A stretch of 64,000 nucleotides of DNA from Clostridiales bacterium (GTDB lineage: Bacteria; Bacillota; Clostridia; Oscillospirales; Acutalibacteraceae). Position 1 is the first letter of the stretch; each line of letters begins with the position of its first letter. Below the pieces are notes generated by a model. The model saw nothing but the letters and a program-made list of their open reading frames with translations, was not told where the DNA came from and made no database searches. The stretch spans positions 1-64,000 of the forward strand of contig JAAWNT010000005.1 in NCBI GenBank assembly GCA_022799115.1, read 5' to 3'. Shown in pieces: positions 45,236 through 64,000 of the stretch. Both the position numbers and the translations under genes were made by a program.

Positions 45236-51651
<6,416 letters not shown>

Positions 51652-51733
51652 TCCCTTCACATCCTTTTCCAATTCCATCTTGATTTTTCCATATCGCATA
51701 TAAATTTAAACATGAAAAAGAGCTATTTCCGTA

Positions 51734-52829: not shown

Positions 52830-53399
52830 TCAGCCTTCATAGGTTTTTATGATATCCTCCGCGATCTGCCGCCTTGTCAGACGCGTGTCCATCGCTTGTT
52901 TTTCCAAATATCGGTGGGCCTCCTGTTCAGTCAGACGCCGATATTGAATCAAGGCGCATTTTGCCCGGTCCACCAGCTTGATCTCCTCGATCTTTTGCTG
53001 TAGCTTATTATTTTCACTTTTCAAGCCCAGCATACGCTTGCGGGAGGCCGTGGCGATCTTCAGCGTCTGATAAAACACCTGGCGGCTAACTGGCTTTGGT
53101 ACGATAAGCACGCCGTAATCCTCCACTTTTTCTGCAATTTCATCGGCCATCTCCGCTTTAACCAGCACCAATACGCTGGAATCCGAACTTTGGGTGACAG
53201 ACACCGCCAGCTCAAATCCGGATTCATCCCGCAGCGGCGTGTTTATCAGCACCAAGTCATATCCGTCCTGAATCATCGCCCGGCGCGCCTCTCCGCCATT
53301 GCTCACAGCCACCACCCGGTCAAAAGCCCTGGCCTTGAGCAAATCGGTTAAAAAGCTCTTTCCCTGATCCGTGCCCGCTACCACCAAAACGTGGTCCAT
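52830..53399 (-). CDS. ANTAR-domain RNA-binding regulator with degenerate receiver
   Basis: A 189-residue antiterminator-type protein. Residues 1-120 have the receiver fold, but the phosphoacceptor site reads LVLINTPLRD, with N53 where an aspartate is expected. The N-terminal acidic pair is also missing (VVAGTDQ), while the lysine in VPKPV is kept. A coiled-coil linker (about 125-145) leads into a C-terminal ANTAR domain with the pattern RLTEQEAHRYLEKQAMDTR and RQIAEDIIKTY. ANTAR proteins bind hexaloop RNA hairpins and stop terminators from forming. Its gene lies between glnA and carA, as in known clostridial glnA-antiterminator pairs. Predicted targets are the three leaders near 59.9, 60.2 and 63.8 kb. 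Confidence 0.92.
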   Translation of the reverse strand: MDHVLVVAGTDQGKSFLTDLLKARAFDRVVAVSNGGEARRAMIQDGYDLVLINTPLRDESGFELAVSVTQSSDSSVLVLVKAEMADEIAEKVEDYGVLIVPKPVSRQVFYQTLKIATASRKRMLGLKSENNKLQQKIEEIKLVDRAKCALIQYRRLTEQEAHRYLEKQAMDTRLTRRQIAEDIIKTYEG

Positions 53400-53443: not shown

Positions 53444-54763
53444 TTATATATTTACAAAGTAAAAATCATGATCGAATTGGTCCTGGTTTTCTACCTTTAC
53501 ATAGCGCTCCCACTGCGCCTGTTTTTCTTTGCAATAATTATCCAGCAAACGCTTGGGCACCACAGCCTTGACAAAATCGCTGTCAGCAGCCAGCCGGATC
53601 GCCTCTCCCAAAGTTTTTGGAAGCGTTCGTATGTCCCTGAGCTGTTCCCCGCTTGCCCGGTACAGATCAAAGTCGGAGGGAGGACACAGCGTTGCTCCTC
53701 TCTTGATTCCATCCAGTCCCGCCATCAAAAGCAGGGCAAAGGCAAGATGAGCGTTGCAGGAGGGATCGGGAGAGCGCAGCTCCATCCGGCTGTTTTCTCC
53801 TTCAGATGCTGGAATTCGGATGAGCTGAGAGCGGTTCTGGTGGGACCAAGTGACATATTTAGGAGCCTCAAACTCTCCAAATCTCCGATAGGAGTTGGGC
53901 AGAGGGTTCAAGAAAAGGGTAATTTCCGGAATTCTCTCCAGAATCCCCGCCATGAAGCTCTCCGCTTCCTGAGAATGCTCCGTTCCGGAGGTCTTAAACA
54001 GATTCACCCCGTCTTTAAAAAGGGAAAGATTGATATGCAGGCCGCTCCCGCTTTTGCCCGGCAGAGGTTTGGGTAAAAAGGTGGCATAAAGTCCGTTTCG
54101 GGCCGCGATATTGCGCACCACAGCGCGAAAGGTCACCAGGTTGTCGGCGGCGCTCAAAGCGTCGCTGTATTTAAAGTCAATTTCATTTTGCCCGGGGCCC
54201 TGCTCATGATGAGAGCTCTCCGGCCGGATTCCCATCTGTTCCAGCGAAAGGCAGATCTCCCGCCGCACGTTTTCCCCGCGATCCTTGGGGGCAATGTCGC
54301 AATAGCCCGCATGATCGTGGGGGATATTGGTAGGATAACCTTTTTCATCCGTTTCAAACAGATAAAATTCGCATTCCGAACCGATCTTACATGCATATCC
54401 CATGGATTCCGCCTGTCTTGCGGCGCGTTGCAGCAGGCTGCGGGCATTCCCCTCAAAGGGAGCGCCGTCGGGATACTTGACGTCGCAGAAGAACCGGATC
54501 ACCCGCCCCTGGGACGGACGCCAGGGCATGATGGATAAGGTGGCGGCATCCGGCACCACAAACAGGTCGGATTCGTCCACATGCATGAACCCGCGCACGG
54601 CAGAAGCGTCAAAGGAAATCCCTTTTTCAAACGCACGGGGCAGCTCCCCGGGCAGGATGGATATGTTTTTTTGCGTTCCAAAAATATCGCAAAACACCAG
54701 GCGGATAAACTTGACGTCGTTTTCCTCCACAAAGCGCAGCACTTCAGCGATGGTCTCTTTCAT
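53444..54763 (-). CDS. glnA: glutamine synthetase, type I
   Basis: ATP-dependent synthesis of glutamine from glutamate and ammonia. The 439-residue enzyme has the GSI layout: beta-grasp N-terminus with FIRLVFCDIFGTQKN, metal site GSECEFYLFE, HHEQGPGQNEIDF, GSGLHINLSL, and NSYRRFGEFEAPKYVTW in place of the usual NSYKRL stretch. It lacks the adenylylation insert of GSI-beta, so it is the alpha type, expected to be feedback controlled. The ATG at 54763 has GGGGG about eight bases upstream. The gene lies between the glutamate synthase genes and the ANTAR gene. Confidence 0.96.
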   Translation of the reverse strand: MKETIAEVLRFVEENDVKFIRLVFCDIFGTQKNISILPGELPRAFEKGISFDASAVRGFMHVDESDLFVVPDAATLSIMPWRPSQGRVIRFFCDVKYPDGAPFEGNARSLLQRAARQAESMGYACKIGSECEFYLFETDEKGYPTNIPHDHAGYCDIAPKDRGENVRREICLSLEQMGIRPESSHHEQGPGQNEIDFKYSDALSAADNLVTFRAVVRNIAARNGLYATFLPKPLPGKSGSGLHINLSLFKDGVNLFKTSGTEHSQEAESFMAGILERIPEITLFLNPLPNSYRRFGEFEAPKYVTWSHQNRSQLIRIPASEGENSRMELRSPDPSCNAHLAFALLLMAGLDGIKRGATLCPPSDFDLYRASGEQLRDIRTLPKTLGEAIRLAADSDFVKAVVPKRLLDNYCKEKQAQWERYVKVENQDQFDHDFYFVNI

Positions 54764-54816
54764 GGATTTAGCCCCCATTTCTCTAAAATCAACGTATGAT
54801 TCCCATTATACACCGC

Positions 54817-55539
54817 TTAATTTTGGGTATAAAGCTGTTTATATGGATTTTTTGTGTCAGGTTTGAGCAGATAAAAGGACTTACCGATTACCTGATCGAA
54901 ACTCTCTTGAAACAGGGAACAAAATTCCTGAAGCGGCTGACGGATGGCCGCTAATTCCCGTTCCCCACAGGGATAAGCCACCACCTGGGGCGGCAGATCG
55001 GGAGGCAGTTCCTCGCACCGTAGGTAAATGGCTCCACCGTGCATTCCGGTTCCACAGAAATTGCCTACCGGCACTTTTTGTCCGCAGTGAAGCCCCAGCA
55101 CAATAATCACGCCGCCTGCCTGGTATTCCCCCAAAAAACTGCCGGCGCGGCCGCCCACCACCAGCATGGGGATTTTATCCCGGTAAGCCTTCATATGAAT
55201 ACCAGCCCGGTAGCCTGTGTCTCCTTTTACAAAAATGCGGCCGCCCCGCATGGCGTAACCTGTGGCATCTCCGGCGCTGCCGTGCACCGTAATGGTCCCT
55301 TCGTTCATGGTATCCCCTGTGGCCTCCTGCACATTTCCATATACGGTGATCTCGCTGCCATCCAGATAGGCGCCCAGGGCATTGCCCGGCGTGCCGTGGA
55401 TCTCCAGTTTCTTTCCCTTGGATCCGCTGGCTATATAGCGCTGCCCCAGACAGTTTTCAATTCGAATCCTGCCGTCCTCTGCGCTGCGTAATCGTTGGTT
55501 TAACTCTTGAAAGGGCATTTGACCGGCGTCAATCTTCAT
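54817..55539 (-). CDS. glutamate synthase GXGXG domain protein
   Basis: A 240-residue protein equal to the C-terminal beta-helix (GXGXG) domain of the large glutamate synthase subunit, here a separate gene. It shows the repeated Gly-rich turns of the helix (GTPGNALGAYLDGSEI, GSAGDATGYAMRGG, GDTGYRAGIHMKAY). In full-length GltB this domain links the glutaminase and FMN parts. It overlaps the preceding FAD oxidoreductase gene by 11 bases and precedes glnA by 53. The ATG at 55539 has AGGTGG eight bases upstream. Confidence 0.92.
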   Translation of the reverse strand: MKIDAGQMPFQELNQRLRSAEDGRIRIENCLGQRYIASGSKGKKLEIHGTPGNALGAYLDGSEITVYGNVQEATGDTMNEGTITVHGSAGDATGYAMRGGRIFVKGDTGYRAGIHMKAYRDKIPMLVVGGRAGSFLGEYQAGGVIIVLGLHCGQKVPVGNFCGTGMHGGAIYLRCEELPPDLPPQVVAYPCGERELAAIRQPLQEFCSLFQESFDQVIGKSFYLLKPDTKNPYKQLYTQN

Positions 55540-56767
55540 CCTCAGCACCACCTAACATCTTATTTCGTTCCACCTTTGAAAAGGCCATCAACTGGGGTTT
55601 TTCTCGGATCAAGGCAAAGTCCACCGAACTCAGTGGAGTCCTGTTTCGGATCATAGCGGTATAAATGCCGCAGCGGGACACATCCCCAACCATCATATAT
55701 CCTTTGAGCAGATCGTCCTGCACAAACAGTTTTTTGTAAGCGTCCCCATCCTTGGAAAGCAGGGCTTTCCCCTGGGGAGATCCCGCCGTCGCCACATGCA
55801 ACCCAAAAAATCCAATGGAATTCATGGGGATGGCCCGGTCATACCGGCTGTCTCCTCCCGCCATATTGATTCCGGCGCATTCTCCCTGAAGATAGGCATT
55901 GGGAAGCAGCGCCAGCACCCGGGATTGTCCGGTAGTGATATCCAGGCTTTCGCTGCAATCTCCCGCAGCAAATACGTCGGGCAATGTAGTCGCGCAGCGG
56001 GTATCGGTCATAATTCCTCTGCCCGTCTTTCCTCCGGCTTCCGCGATGAGTTCTATATTGGGAGAAACGCCCACTGCCACCACCAGAATGTCAAAGGGGA
56101 GCCGGGTTCCGCTTTTCAGCGCCGCAGTATTTCCTTCAAACCGCTCCACTCCATCGGAGAGAAGAAAGTCTACGCCCTGTTTTTCAATATGGTCCTGCAT
56201 CCGCTTGGCGGCGTCCACATCCAGAATACTGGAAAGGATGTGGTCCGCCAGATCTACTACCGTGACATTCTGCGCCAGATGGCGGATCCCTTCGGCACAT
56301 TTTAGCCCAATGAGTCCGGCCCCCATGATAAGCACCCGGCTATTAGGCGTAAGAGCGGCCCCAAGCCGCAGCGCATCATCCAGGGACTGGAAAGTAAACC
56401 GTTTTTCCACCTGGCGGATTCCCTCAATGGGCGGGACAAAGGGGCGGGACCCGGTGGCCATCAGAAGCTTCTCATATTCAAGCGTGCGTCCGTCTGAAAG
56501 CAGAGCCTTATGCTCTTCAGGGATAATGCGGCAGACGGAAACCCCTGTGAGCAGTTCGCAGCGGTTTTCCTCGTAAAACCCATCGGGGCGGTACTTCATC
56601 CGCTGCCGGTCGGTTTCTCCCCGCAGTAAATAGGAGATCAGGGGCCGTGAATAGGTATGGTAGGGTTCCTCCGATACCAGGGTAATACTCCCTTCACGGT
56701 CCAGTTGGCGGATTCCCTCCACACAGCCTACCGCTGCGGTGGAATTCCCTATAATCACATAACGCAT
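55529..56767 (-). CDS. FAD/NAD(P)-dependent oxidoreductase of the split glutamate synthase
   Basis: A 412-residue pyridine nucleotide-disulfide type flavoprotein, probably the electron-input subunit. The FAD motif YVIIGNSTAAVGCVEGI lies at the N-terminus, a central NAD(P) motif reads VLIMGAGLIGLKCAEGI, and a second FAD motif reads DVFAAGDCSE. No redox CxxC pair is obvious. GTG at 56776 is in frame, but the ATG at 56767 has better spacing from AGGAG. It lies between the ferredoxin and GXGXG genes. Nitrite reductase-like and rubredoxin reductase-like flavoproteins share the fold, so its role here rests mainly on context. Confidence 0.9.
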   Translation of the reverse strand: MRYVIIGNSTAAVGCVEGIRQLDREGSITLVSEEPYHTYSRPLISYLLRGETDRQRMKYRPDGFYEENRCELLTGVSVCRIIPEEHKALLSDGRTLEYEKLLMATGSRPFVPPIEGIRQVEKRFTFQSLDDALRLGAALTPNSRVLIMGAGLIGLKCAEGIRHLAQNVTVVDLADHILSSILDVDAAKRMQDHIEKQGVDFLLSDGVERFEGNTAALKSGTRLPFDILVVAVGVSPNIELIAEAGGKTGRGIMTDTRCATTLPDVFAAGDCSESLDITTGQSRVLALLPNAYLQGECAGINMAGGDSRYDRAIPMNSIGFFGLHVATAGSPQGKALLSKDGDAYKKLFVQDDLLKGYMMVGDVSRCGIYTAMIRNRTPLSSVDFALIREKPQLMAFSKVERNKMLGGAEDED

Positions 56768-56772
56768 ATGTT

Positions 56773-57204
56773 TCACCTCTCCTCATACACGATGGCCCGG
56801 TTGGGACAGTGAGCCACACAAGCCGGCGAACCGTCGCTGTTTTTCAGGCAAAGTTCGCATTTTTGCACCACCCCGTCCTGGGACGGCATAATCGCCCCGT
56901 AGGGACAACTTAAAATGCAGGTGTAACAACCCACGCACTTTCCCTGATTAACGGCGATCACCCCGTCGTTTAATGTGAGGGCGCCGGTAATGCAGCTTTT
57001 CACACACAGCGGCTCGGCGCAGTGCCGGCAGGATACCGCAAAGCTCACCCCTTCTTTTCCCTCTTCAATCTGGATCCGGGGATGAATGGCGATTCCCTTT
57101 AGGGCCTTGGCCATATCGTCGATCCCGGAATTTGCAAAGGCACAATAATATTCGCAAAGATGGCACCCCAAGCACCAATCCTCATTGACATAGATTCGTT
57201 TCAT
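56773..57204 (-). CDS. four-cluster ferredoxin (HycB/HydN-like)
   Basis: A 143-residue electron carrier with sixteen cysteines arranged for four [4Fe-4S] clusters: CLGCHLCEYYC, CRHCAEPLCVKSC, CVGCYTCILSCP and CELCLKNS...CVAHCP. It would pass electrons between the FAD protein and the FMN synthase subunit. Its stop codon lies at the start of the FAD oxidoreductase gene, and it follows the FMN subunit gene by eight bases. Confidence 0.93.
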   Translation of the reverse strand: MKRIYVNEDWCLGCHLCEYYCAFANSGIDDMAKALKGIAIHPRIQIEEGKEGVSFAVSCRHCAEPLCVKSCITGALTLNDGVIAVNQGKCVGCYTCILSCPYGAIMPSQDGVVQKCELCLKNSDGSPACVAHCPNRAIVYEER

Positions 57205-57212
57205 ATTGTCCC

Positions 57213-58718
57213 CTACTCTCCCGCGTGTTTGATTCCCAGGATTTGCAGCTCTTTTTCATTGAGACCCACTCCCCGCAGCATCAGGCGGTTGCCCCGCAAG
57301 GCTTCAATAGAATTGATCCCCATGCCGCCCATCATCTCCTTAATCTCATGCTCCCAGGCTGTGATCAGATTCACAAGCCGTTCGCTGCCAACGTTGGGGT
57401 TTAACCGCTTGACCAGATCGGGCCGCTGGGTTGCAATCCCCCAATTGCATCTTCCCTGCTGGCAGCTTCGGCACAGGTGGCATCCCAAGGCCAGCAGCGC
57501 GCTGGTGGCAATGTATACTGCGTCCGCTCCCAAAGCGATCGCTTTTACCAAATCGGCGCTGCTGCGAATGCTGCCGCCCACAACAATGGATACGTTTCCC
57601 CGGATTCCCTCTTCTCTGAGCCGTTGGTCCACACTGGCAAGCGCCAACTCGATGGGAATGCCCACATTGTCCCGGATGCGGGTAGGCGCGGCCCCCGTGC
57701 CTCCCCGGAATCCGTCGATGGCGATGATATCCGCGCCGCTGCGGGCGATACCGCTGGCGATGGCGGCCACGTTATGCACCGCCGCCACCTTGACAATAAC
57801 CGGCTTTCTGTAGGCGGTGGCCTCCTTTAAGGAGTAAACCAGCTGGCGCAGATCCTCGATGGAATAAATGTCATGGTGAGGCGCTGGGGAGATGGCGTCG
57901 CTGCCCTCGGGAATCATACGCGTTTTGGAAACCTCCCCCACAATCTTGGCCCCGGGCAGGTGCCCGCCGATCCCCGGCTTGGCCCCCTGACCCATCTTAA
58001 TCTCAATCGCTGCCCCGGTTTCCAAATACTCCTTATGTACGCCAAACCGTCCGGACGCCACCTGGACAATGGTGTTTTTCCCATATTCATAAAAGTCTTC
58101 GTGCAGGCCGCCCTCGCCGGTATTGTAGTATATTCCCAGCTGTTGGGCTGCACGGGCAAGGCTTTCATGGGCGTTGTAACTGATGGACCCATAGCTCATT
58201 GCAGAAAACATCACCGGTACGGAAAGCTCTAAATGAGGTCCTAAATTGTTGATTAAATTCCCCGTTTCATCCCGCTCCACCCGTTCCGGCTTTTTGCCCA
58301 GAGTAACCTTGGTTTCCATGGGTTCCCGCAGAGGATCAATGGGAGGATTGGTTACCTGTGAGGCGTTGATTAGCATCTTATCCCAGTATACCGGGTACTG
58401 CTTAGGGGTGCCCATGGAGGACAACAGCACGCCGCCGCTGCCCGCCTGGCGGTAGATCTCTCCAATGCTATCTGAGGTCCAGTTGGCGTTAGCGCGGAAC
58501 GTGTGATCGCTTTTAACGATCTTCAGCGCTCTGGTAGGGCAAAGCGCTACACAGCGGTGGCAATTGACGCATTTGCTCTCGTCGGCGGTCATTTTTTTCA
58601 AGTCTTCCTCATAGCGGTGGACCTCGTTAGCGCATTGCCTTTCGCATACGCGGCAGGCGATGCAGCGATCCAGGTTGCGAATCACCTCAAATTCCGGATA
58701 CAAAAAATTTACTGGCAT
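57213..58718 (-). CDS. gltB: glutamate synthase FMN-binding subunit (archaeal-type GltB core)
   Basis: A 501-residue protein with an N-terminal two-cluster ferredoxin part (CIACRVCERQC, CVNCHRCVALCP) and the FMN/2-oxoglutarate synthase domain. It catalyses reductive transfer of ammonia to 2-oxoglutarate to give glutamate. Typical are AMSYGSISYNAHESLA, GEGGLHEDFYEYG, GAKPGIGGHLPGAK and GADIIAIDGFRGGTGAAP. The 3Fe-4S motif region is GCHLCRSCQQGRCNWGIATQ. The ATG at 58718 has AAGGAGG eight to nine bases upstream and overlaps the glutaminase gene by ten bases. Glutaminase and GXGXG domains are on separate genes. Confidence 0.95.
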   Translation of the reverse strand: MPVNFLYPEFEVIRNLDRCIACRVCERQCANEVHRYEEDLKKMTADESKCVNCHRCVALCPTRALKIVKSDHTFRANANWTSDSIGEIYRQAGSGGVLLSSMGTPKQYPVYWDKMLINASQVTNPPIDPLREPMETKVTLGKKPERVERDETGNLINNLGPHLELSVPVMFSAMSYGSISYNAHESLARAAQQLGIYYNTGEGGLHEDFYEYGKNTIVQVASGRFGVHKEYLETGAAIEIKMGQGAKPGIGGHLPGAKIVGEVSKTRMIPEGSDAISPAPHHDIYSIEDLRQLVYSLKEATAYRKPVIVKVAAVHNVAAIASGIARSGADIIAIDGFRGGTGAAPTRIRDNVGIPIELALASVDQRLREEGIRGNVSIVVGGSIRSSADLVKAIALGADAVYIATSALLALGCHLCRSCQQGRCNWGIATQRPDLVKRLNPNVGSERLVNLITAWEHEIKEMMGGMGINSIEALRGNRLMLRGVGLNEKELQILGIKHAGE

Positions 58719-59809
58719 CCGTTGACACCTCCTTGGAGCGTAACAATCACCGGTTCCCCGCCTTTTGGGGACCACAGCCGTTCAGGGGTCGGTTCCACAG
58801 CTCGTATGGCGCACTCTTCACTGGCCACATACACCATGTCTCCCTTTTCTCCAACCACCATAGAGCGCAGCTTGAGACGGTCGTTCAGAGCCATCATACC
58901 GCCCTCAAAGCCCAGCAGGATAGAGAATGGACCGGTAATCAGCAGACTGGGAAACGCATTTCGAAGGTAGGTAAGTTTTTCCCTCTCCTGAGGCGGCATC
59001 CGTTCGATGGTGGACCAGAATGGGGCCGCGATGACCGAGGCTACCTCCGTTAGCGTGAGCTTCTGCCTGCGATGCAGGTAATCGATCATATAGGTAATCA
59101 CCTCTGTGTCGGTAAGCAGAGTGCACTGGTACCCGAACATCTCAATGTACCGGCGATTTGCATCGTAAGAAGAAATTTCCCCATTGTGCACAATGGAGTA
59201 GTCCAGCATGGCAAACGGATGAGCGCCGCCCCACCAGCCGGGCGTATTGGTGGGGTATCGGCCATGAGCCGTCCAGCAATATCCGGCATACTCCTGAAGA
59301 CGGTAGAATTCACCCACGTCCTCTGGATATCCCACCGCCTTGAATACCCCCATGTTCTTTCCGCTGGAAAAGATGTAGGCGCCGTCGATCTGGGTATTAA
59401 CCCGGATGACACACCGGGCGGTATATTCTCGTTCATCCAGCTGGCTGTCTTTGAGCTTTGTCGGCAGAGGGCTGACGAAGTAACGCCAAATCAGCGGTTC
59501 ATCGGTGATCTGGGGCAGCTTTTTCACAGGGATTTTAGAAAGATTGATGACGTCAAAATGCCGCTCAATCAATTTTTCGCACCGTTCCTTGGCCTCCACA
59601 TCATTATAAAATATGTGAAACGCATAATAATCCTTATATTCCGGATAAATCCCATAACCGGCGAATCCACCGCCCAGCCCATTGCTGCGGTCATGCATAG
59701 TGGCGATGGACTTTATAATCGTATCTCCCCCCAGACGTTTGCCGCTTTTGGAAAAAATACCGGAAATCGCGCAACCGGAAGGAATTCTGACCTCTCCCTC
59801 TTTTTGCAT
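58709..59809 (-). CDS. class II glutamine amidotransferase subunit of the split glutamate synthase
   Basis: A 366-residue glutaminase, first gene of the train. The nucleophile is expected to be C13 in IPSGCAISGIFS, so the first twelve residues would have to be removed as in other Ntn glutaminases. Family segments are AHGRYPTNTPGWWGGAHPF, IVHNGEISSYDANRRY and LLTDTEVITYMID. It supplies ammonia to the FMN subunit. AAGGAGG lies seven bases before the ATG. Upstream is the hexaloop and terminator leader. Confidence 0.94.
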   Translation of the reverse strand: MQKEGEVRIPSGCAISGIFSKSGKRLGGDTIIKSIATMHDRSNGLGGGFAGYGIYPEYKDYYAFHIFYNDVEAKERCEKLIERHFDVINLSKIPVKKLPQITDEPLIWRYFVSPLPTKLKDSQLDEREYTARCVIRVNTQIDGAYIFSSGKNMGVFKAVGYPEDVGEFYRLQEYAGYCWTAHGRYPTNTPGWWGGAHPFAMLDYSIVHNGEISSYDANRRYIEMFGYQCTLLTDTEVITYMIDYLHRRQKLTLTEVASVIAAPFWSTIERMPPQEREKLTYLRNAFPSLLITGPFSILLGFEGGMMALNDRLKLRSMVVGEKGDMVYVASEECAIRAVEPTPERLWSPKGGEPVIVTLQGGVNGCQ

Positions 59810-59898: not shown

Positions 59899-59955
59899 TA
59901 AAAAAGACGTTCATAAAAAGACGGAGCCATACGAGTCCGTTCCTTTTATGAACGC
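59899..59955 (-). terminator. leader terminator (attenuator) of the glt gene train
   Basis: On the minus strand, arms at 59936-59955 and 59906-59925 form a 20-position imperfect stem, followed by TTTTTT. It lies between the promoter and the first gene, with no gene ending here on that strand, so it acts as an attenuator. Its 5' arm begins with the GTTCAT that also closes the hexaloop hairpin just upstream. Confidence 0.85.
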
Positions 59956-59965
59956 CTTTGTTCAT
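59948..59965 (-). promoter_or_regulatory. A1/G4 hexaloop hairpin, predicted ANTAR site, glt leader
   Basis: On the minus strand ATGAAC, loop AAAGGC, GTTCAT: a six-base-pair stem with a six-base loop having A at position 1 and G at position 4, the pattern ANTAR domains recognise. It starts about at the predicted transcript start. Its 3' arm is shared with the terminator, so the two structures exclude each other. A second hexaloop, usual in known targets, is not clear. Confidence 0.7.
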
Positions 59966-59970
59966 GTTGT

Positions 59971-60000
59971 ATTATAGAATACTTTCTGGTTGCTTGTCAA
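59971..60000 (-). promoter_or_regulatory. promoter of the glt-gln-car gene train
   Basis: On the minus strand TTGACA (59995-60000), 18-base spacer, TATAAT (59971-59976). The palindrome TGGTTG-ACAAG-CAACCA (59987-60003) overlaps the -35 box and could be a protein site. Confidence 0.85.
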
Positions 60001-60120
60001 CCATTTGCATGATAATTTTTATCTTCCTGCAAAATAAGATTATTCTTCCGTCCGCGTTCGTGCATTTTGATGAATTCATGAGAATTATAAAAAAAATCTT
60101 GCAAAACTTTCAAATAAAGG

Positions 60121-60149
60121 TTGACAATCCACCCACAGCGGGCTATAAT
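60121..60149 (+). promoter_or_regulatory. promoter of asnA-glnN
   Basis: TTGACA (60121-60126), 17-base spacer, TATAAT (60144-60149), a consensus promoter. It is divergent from the glt promoter, about 120 bases away. Confidence 0.9.
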
Positions 60150-60161
60150 GCAAAGCGTAAT

Positions 60162-60175
60162 CAGCAAGGGCGCTG
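60162..60175 (+). promoter_or_regulatory. A1/G4 hexaloop hairpin, predicted ANTAR site, asnA leader
   Basis: CAGC, loop AAGGGC, GCTG: a four-base-pair stem with a hexaloop of the A1/G4 type, close to the predicted transcript start. GGGC-GCTG is also the 5' arm of the terminator that follows, so they are alternatives. Confidence 0.65.
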
Positions 60176-60205
60176 TAGGTGAGAACCTACGGCGCCTTTT
60201 CTTTT
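60168..60205 (+). terminator. leader terminator (attenuator) of asnA-glnN
   Basis: GGCGCTGTAGGT pairs with ACCTACGGCGCC around a GAGA loop, followed by TTTTCTTTT. It lies between the promoter and asnA, so it must be overcome for expression. Confidence 0.88.
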
Positions 60206-63822: not shown

Positions 63823-63833
63823 TATAAAAAACT

Positions 63834-63879
63834 ACACAAAGGCGTGTGTTTTGCTTGAAACAAAACACACGCCTTTGTG
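63834..63879 (+). promoter_or_regulatory. amt leader: A1/G4 hexaloop hairpin overlapping a 19-bp hairpin
   Basis: ACAC, loop AAAGGC, GTGT (63834-63847) forms a small hairpin with the same loop as the glt leader. The same bases are the 5' arm of a perfect 19-base-pair hairpin (63835-63853 with 63861-63879, loop CTTGAAA). That hairpin ends 3 bases before AGGAGG. It has only a short T run (CCTTTGTG), so it may be a weak terminator or may hinder ribosome loading. Confidence 0.6.
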
Positions 63880-63895: not shown

Positions 63896-64000
63896 ATGTC
63901 AGGAATTTATTCTTCGGTCAATACCATTTGGGTCCTATTGGGGGCCGCTCTGGTATTCTTTATGCAGGCCGGCTTCGCTATGGTAGAAACCGGCTTCACA
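63896..64000 (+). CDS. amt: ammonium transporter (AmtB type), 5' part, cut by window edge
   Basis: The first 35 codons of an ammonium channel gene. The segment starts [19 protein letters not shown] and goes on into the first membrane helix with [13 protein letters not shown], a hallmark of Amt proteins. AGGAGG lies nine bases before the ATG. It follows asnA and glnN, so ammonium uptake and assimilation are together. The rest of the gene, and any glnB-type partner, lies outside the window. Confidence 0.93.

Follow-up and report, generated by a model that had tools for sequence, protein, structure and literature searches.

A candidate ANTAR-type transcription attenuator with a single hexaloop hairpin in the leader of a clostridial glutamate synthase operon

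The minus strand of the window (the whole 64,000-nucleotide stretch of DNA that was analyzed) carries a gene train of 15.9 kb, which runs from 59809 to 43944 with short gaps. The train opens with the glutamate synthase (glt) genes and includes genes for a glutamine synthetase and an ANTAR protein, as follows.

58709–59809, minus strand: glutamate synthase, class-II glutamine amidotransferase part; the operon starts with this gene (Pfam PF00310)
57213–58775, minus strand: synthase domain of glutamate synthase with a ferredoxin part (Pfam PF01645)
56773–57204, minus strand: 4Fe-4S protein
55529–56776, minus strand: NAD(P)-linked oxidoreductase
54817–55551, minus strand: GXGXG domain
53444–54778, minus strand: glnA, encoding a type I glutamine synthetase and followed directly by the ANTAR gene (Pfam PF00120/PF03951)
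52830–53399, minus strand: ANTAR regulator with an apparent pseudo-receiver (PF03861, E 1.3e-17)

The upstream neighbor, asnA, is transcribed divergently, and the leaders of the two operons contain the following elements.

59987–60003, minus strand: palindrome TGGTTG-ACAAG-CAACCA with exact 6-bp arms over the −35 box, probably due to chance
59971–60000, minus strand: glt promoter TTGACA-18-TATAAT, with the −35 box TTGACA at 60000–59995 and the −10 box TATAAT at 59976–59971 (12 of 12 consensus matches)
59948–59965, minus strand: hexaloop hairpin AUGAAC[AAAGGC]GUUCAU with a 6-bp stem, a candidate P2-like ANTAR antiterminator
59900–59959, minus strand: intrinsic terminator of 19 pairs with the U-tract TTTTTT at 59905–59900
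60121–60205, plus strand: divergent asnA-glnN leader, with a promoter at 60121–60149, the hairpin CAGC[AAGGGC]GCUG at 60162–60175, and a terminator at 60166–60199

A sequence-only reading of this region had described a consensus promoter followed within about ten bases by a hexaloop hairpin and then by a terminator with TTTTTT, and our analysis confirmed this order. The gap between the −10 box and the hairpin is 5 nt, and the loop begins 11 nt after the −10 box. Transcription typically starts 6 to 8 nt after a −10 box, and the hairpin is predicted to lie at or within a few nucleotides of the RNA 5′ end. A promoter scan of the 6-kb region found no overall excess of promoter-like sites (6 compared with 5.6 expected), and the only two with 12 of 12 matches were the glt promoter and the divergent asnA promoter. 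The same reading held that the end of an upstream gene does not explain the terminator, and this was borne out, because asnA runs in the opposite direction.

We next consider how the leader folds. The minimum free energy of the 77-nt glt leader was −32.3 kcal/mol, compared with a shuffle mean of −12.2 (z −7.3), and 0 of 200 dinucleotide shuffles matched it. The 5′ arm of the terminator is composed of the loop and the 3′ arm of the hexaloop hairpin, and forcing the leader into the hexaloop conformer raised its energy to −16.2 kcal/mol, a penalty of ∼16 kcal/mol. These values indicate that the hairpin and the terminator are mutually exclusive and that the hairpin needs help to win over the terminator. 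The only Rfam match above the gathering score in the whole window was one tRNA, and the glt leader gave weak sub-threshold matches; a known riboswitch was rejected on this basis as the identity of the leader.

The loop AAAGGC has A at position 1, G at position 4, and a C-G closing pair, which is the signature of ANTAR targets, and it is flanked by AC and GU. In described ANTAR targets, the hexaloops have A1 and G4, the two closing pairs are conserved in the eut genes, and the second of the two hairpins, P2, overlaps the terminator (PMC3369931). Walshe et al. (2022) reduced the definition of the minimal target to a single hexaloop and called for a further search for such sites (PMC8934654). The glt hairpin falls within this minimal definition, which asks for an A1/G4 hexaloop with 3 or more stem pairs.

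To define the distribution of this leader, 60 relatives were searched with the first glt protein, which gave 23 strong matches (judged from E-values; one partial). A hairpin follows a promoter upstream of the glt homologue in 17 of the 23; the loops of two relatives deviate, with G at position 1 in L004 and AATGAA in L007. A wider motif scan of the window and L003–L060 yielded 53 stems, 44 with a terminator, of which 36 also had a promoter. In 32 of these 36 leaders, the distance from the −10 box to the start of the loop was 11–17 nt, and in the other 4 it was 25–29 nt. We then applied a strict test, which required a promoter, a hexaloop 11–17 nt after the −10 box (A1 and G4 being imposed by the search design), and a shared terminator. 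Of 80 homologous genes in named records, 46 had this arrangement in their upstream region and 34 failed the test; 0 of 800 shuffles contained it.

A P1 hairpin with a short linker, the hallmark of dual-hexaloop leaders, was not found in the glt leader. With transcription starting at the typical distance from the −10 box, P1 cannot fit, because only 5 bases separate that box from the hairpin. A second A1/G4 hexaloop further down the leader was rejected as a P1 substitute, since such loops occurred in the bodies of 8 of the 46 leaders compared with 4.3 expected, which is near chance, and only that of L131 looks genuine. In L131, upstream of the first glt gene, the second hexaloop (AATGGT) is nested in the terminator apex, possibly a dual arrangement of another kind. 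Tandem hexaloop-terminator units were observed before asnA in L010, L011, L014, L015, L017, L018, and L021; the second hairpins of these leaders have no good promoter of their own, and the 5′-terminal position is therefore not an absolute rule.

As a positive control, the same kind of scan was applied to 20 loci in the phylum that encode EutV-like proteins, and leaders of the P1-linker-P2-terminator type were detected at three (L227, L231, and L235). The next gene is glnA in L227 and L235, and the loops of the dual leaders include AATGGC and AAAGGC, as in the single-hexaloop set. By eye, no P1 was seen in L232, in L233, or in the second leader of L235, which precede glutamate-synthase-like genes or the ANTAR gene itself. 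Thus, single-hairpin leaders may also occur together with ordinary receivers.

In an alignment of 32 leaders of glt and asnA-type genes, the stems differ between genes while the loop and its closing pair are retained. Leaders entered this alignment only if they had the loop motif and a stem of at least 4 bp (the four inner pairs), so the kinds of pairs, and not pairing itself, constitute the independent evidence. We counted 41 double-change cells at 4 of the 6 stem pairs, and covariation was 0.626 compared with at most 0.160 in slid controls.

The ANTAR gene of the glt operon (52830–53399) encodes the sole ANTAR domain detected in the 2.4-Mb genome. This C-terminal domain scored 63.8 bits against PF03861 (cut-off 27.3) and matched 1s8n, 6wsh, and 1qo0. 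The EutV residues that contact the hexaloop were taken from a published structure (PMC8934654) and compared by alignment. They are mostly preserved in the window's protein: K143, K149, E160, M172, and R175 are identical and K147 and N173 are replaced by R and D, but I, E, and T stand in place of R142, R168, and R177. Tyr-164 of EutV is replaced by His, as in AmiR.

The phospho-acceptor of the receiver (EutV Asp-54) is absent from the window's protein, which has Asn in this column; reading the column by eye in 29 aligned ANTAR proteins, including that of the window, gave 23 N, 2 D, and 4 other residues. Because Asn replaces Asp-54, the domain appears to be a pseudo-receiver, and without a phospho-acceptor the protein is probably switched by a partner. 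In both its pseudo-receiver and its His at the Tyr-164 position, the protein resembles AmiR (PDB 1qo0). AmiR, however, is controlled by AmiC, whereas no AmiC-like partner was identified here and the gene neighbor is a glutamine synthetase. GlnA lies upstream on the same strand at 24 of 30 ANTAR loci (window included). That this usual neighbor, the type I glutamine synthetase, is the switching partner is a guess that we regard as somewhat doubtful.

To examine whether leader and protein occur together, a model of the promoter and hairpin was searched in 295 genomes of the order. The leader matched in 139 of them at E ≤ 0.001, and an ANTAR domain was present in 168; 123 genomes had both, 16 the leader only, 45 ANTAR only, and 111 neither (p about 9e-27, not corrected for kinship). 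At E ≤ 1e-4, the corresponding counts were 101, 6, 67, and 121. The 45 ANTAR-only genomes had no model match; the model is strict, and it missed the glt leader of Acetivibrio mesophilus (L132). A class-level search at E ≤ 1e-4 matched 47 of 245 genomes, some of them in the window's own order.

From the sequence, 8 of the 16 leader-only genomes were judged to have real leaders. The matches in G058, G277, G188, G212, G150, G262, G240, and G283 were judged false and were kept in the contingency table; one of the two in G212 precedes glutamate dehydrogenase, but its loop is degenerate. An ANTAR profile search of the eight convincing genomes found only a truncated receiver fragment of an ANTAR protein, in G319. 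In G315, G132, G146, G041, and G052, convincing leaders were observed, and neither the family search nor the profile search detected an ANTAR protein. G315 (100% complete) has leaders of GS and amtB, G132 of purA, and G146 of purC.

In the window's own genome, the model gave 37 ranked matches, of which ranks 1 to 5 and L242 were inspected. Ranks 1, 2, 4, and 5 precede asnA-glnN, glt, and two glutamate dehydrogenase genes; the last two (E 0.026 and 0.053) were called gdh (gdhA) from their sequence. L238 and L242 were weak, had no hexaloop, and were dropped. A pattern search of this genome returned 31 matches compared with 19 in a backward control and is therefore mostly noise; the gdhA leader on C36 was seen both in this search and by the model. 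For 20 further matches across the order, the downstream genes were compared with the window's proteins by BLAST, which identified GSIII (4), PyrG (2), AmtB-PII (3), and CarA/CarB (3); the remaining 8 had no BLAST match to these proteins. From their sequence features, we take genes in this remainder to encode PurA (4), glutamate dehydrogenase, PurF, and an ATP-grasp protein, and one to be phage terminase-like and probably not a target. One of the four purA genes is followed by guaA, and in two the gene start lies >900 nt downstream. We propose that the leaders before asnA-glnN, amtB-PII, and two gdhA genes here, and those before purA, purF, pyrG, carAB, and GS in relatives, belong to one regulon.

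Taken together, these data make it probable that the glt leader acts as a transcription attenuator of the ANTAR type, with a single hexaloop hairpin, for the ANTAR protein of the same operon. The sequences show its architecture, the mutual exclusion of the two structures, the covariation of the stems, and the co-occurrence with the protein. From these we infer protein binding, the direction of the signal, and antitermination in the cell, which would proceed as follows. RNA polymerase would start at or next to the hairpin, which would consequently emerge from the exit channel before any other structure. While the ANTAR protein is inactive, probably in nitrogen or glutamine excess, the downstream arm would capture the 3′ half of the hairpin and the terminator would form, leaving a short RNA of ∼60 nt. 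The active protein, probably in nitrogen limitation, would bind the C[AANGGY]G loop, hold the hairpin, and block the terminator, so that the 16-kb operon, including glnA and the protein's own gene, would be transcribed. It is thus plausible that the short RNA appears in ammonium excess and read-through in limitation.

The leader shares with the targets of EutV, NasR, and AmiR the A1/G4 hexaloop, the C-G closing pair, the overlap with the 5′ arm of the terminator, and the nitrogen genes downstream (PMC3369931, PMC8934654). Their targets are dual-hexaloop RNAs, whereas this leader has a single hairpin, at or beside the predicted start site, and lacks both P1 and the linker. Two hairpins are needed in the EutV and NasR systems; deletion of P1 abolishes eutP induction (PMC3369931), and NasR binding is about 12-fold weaker when P2 is the only hairpin. 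At any one time, however, the EutV dimer touches a single hexaloop, and P1 was proposed to be a recruitment hairpin (PMC8934654). The need for two hairpins is thus a puzzle: in the crystal structure the dimer sits on one hexaloop, while in the genetics P1 is obligatory. P1 recruitment may be dispensable at an RNA 5′ end, because a hairpin there is the first to emerge and does so close to the polymerase. In nearly all of this large natural set of candidate P1-less attenuators, the hairpin lies at or close to the first base of the RNA, and the set makes the recruitment-hairpin model directly testable. In the open-access literature, we found no report of P1-less single-hairpin ANTAR attenuators or of this regulon; single-hexaloop sites have been proposed before, and attenuators of this kind are new as far as that literature shows.

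The sequence-only reading had suggested that the 16-kb train is under control of both initiation and elongation. Attenuation directly after the promoter is well supported by an architecture shared across many families, the covarying stems, and the ANTAR gene in the operon, but the initiation part, which relied on the palindrome, did not hold. Dual control by a DNA-binding repressor on the palindrome together with attenuation would fit its exact 6-bp arms and its span over the −35 box at 60003–59987, where the reading had placed it. However, an inverted repeat of at least 6 bp covers the −35 box in 5 of 57 leaders (window included) with sequences unrelated to one another, the glt palindrome is absent from the other 56 and is therefore regarded as chance, and TTGACAA is partly palindromic by itself. 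For want of conservation among the 57 leaders, the palindrome was rejected as an operator, and dual control is the least probable alternative that we considered. As a hidden P1 it was likewise rejected, since its loop has 5 bases rather than 6, it lies within the promoter, and relatives do not share it. A classical dual-hexaloop leader, with an unseen P1 transcribed from an upstream promoter, would accord with the two hairpins of the EutV and NasR systems and with a second promoter-like site at 60113–60084 (11 of 12 matches). We consider it improbable, because 32 of 36 leaders have a near-consensus promoter at a constant spacing in front of the hairpin, this palindrome is the nearest upstream hairpin, and second A1/G4 hexaloops are near chance in number, L131 being a good dual case.

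An unregulated terminator that insulates or damps the promoter, e.g. against divergent transcription, would fit the high stability of the structure and its place between a divergent gene pair. It would not explain why a conserved hexaloop arm copies the 3′ arm of the terminator, why the stems covary, or why the same arrangement precedes unlinked nitrogen and nucleotide genes, and we consider it very unlikely, only marginally ahead of dual control. The strongest of the alternatives, though still unlikely, accepts the hairpin-terminator switch and assigns the hexaloop to another factor, an RNA-binding protein or a metabolite. It would account for convincing leaders without an ANTAR match, such as those of G315, G132, and G146. 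The strong co-occurrence of leader and ANTAR domain, the identity of the loops with those of dual ANTAR leaders before glnA, the ANTAR gene inside the regulated operon, and the lack of an Rfam family above the gathering score all favor the ANTAR protein as the reader of the loop.

A broader interpretation, which we judge to be evenly balanced, is that, in this order and related ones among the Clostridia, P1-less ANTAR attenuators at the very 5′ end of the RNA govern a regulon of nitrogen and nucleotide genes (GOGAT, GS, asnA, gdh, amtB-PII, purA, purF, pyrG, and carAB). The transcription start would replace the recruitment hairpin, and the pseudo-receiver would be switched by a protein partner, perhaps the neighboring glutamine synthetase, rather than by phosphorylation. 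If so, Clostridia would gain a broad nitrogen-control circuit acting by antitermination, and the position of the ANTAR gene next to glnA in GOGAT clusters, including that of C. thermocellum, in which amino acid secretion limits ethanol yield, would be explained. ANTAR targets predicted earlier include glutamate synthase genes of Desulfotomaculum (PMC3369931). In C. thermocellum, Clo1313_2030 to 2036 form a GS-GOGAT cluster with an ANTAR gene (Clo1313_2030), as here, and its product was proposed to be an ammonia-responsive antiterminator; the same work mentions NitR, the ANTAR protein of solvent-forming Clostridium, and its passages on the two proteins describe no RNA target (PMC4676874).

A further leader with an ANTAR-type loop was found at the end of the window.

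63833–63877, plus strand: leader of the amtB-PII fusion gene, with UACAC[AAAGGC]GUGUG at 63833–63848 and a long stem to 63877

Its U-tail is weak and it lies near the Shine-Dalgarno sequence, so that a terminator and control of the ribosome site are both possible. The amtB-PII gene itself, just downstream of glnN, extends from window position 63896 onward (L061:997-2697) and encodes an ammonium transporter fused at its C terminus to a PII domain (matches to TIGR00836 and to PII). Within the minus-strand train, carB and dapF occupy one open frame of 1362 aa (47611–51699), with the CPSase large subunit reaching approximately residue 1065 and DapF beginning at 1087, which represents either a fusion or a lost stop.
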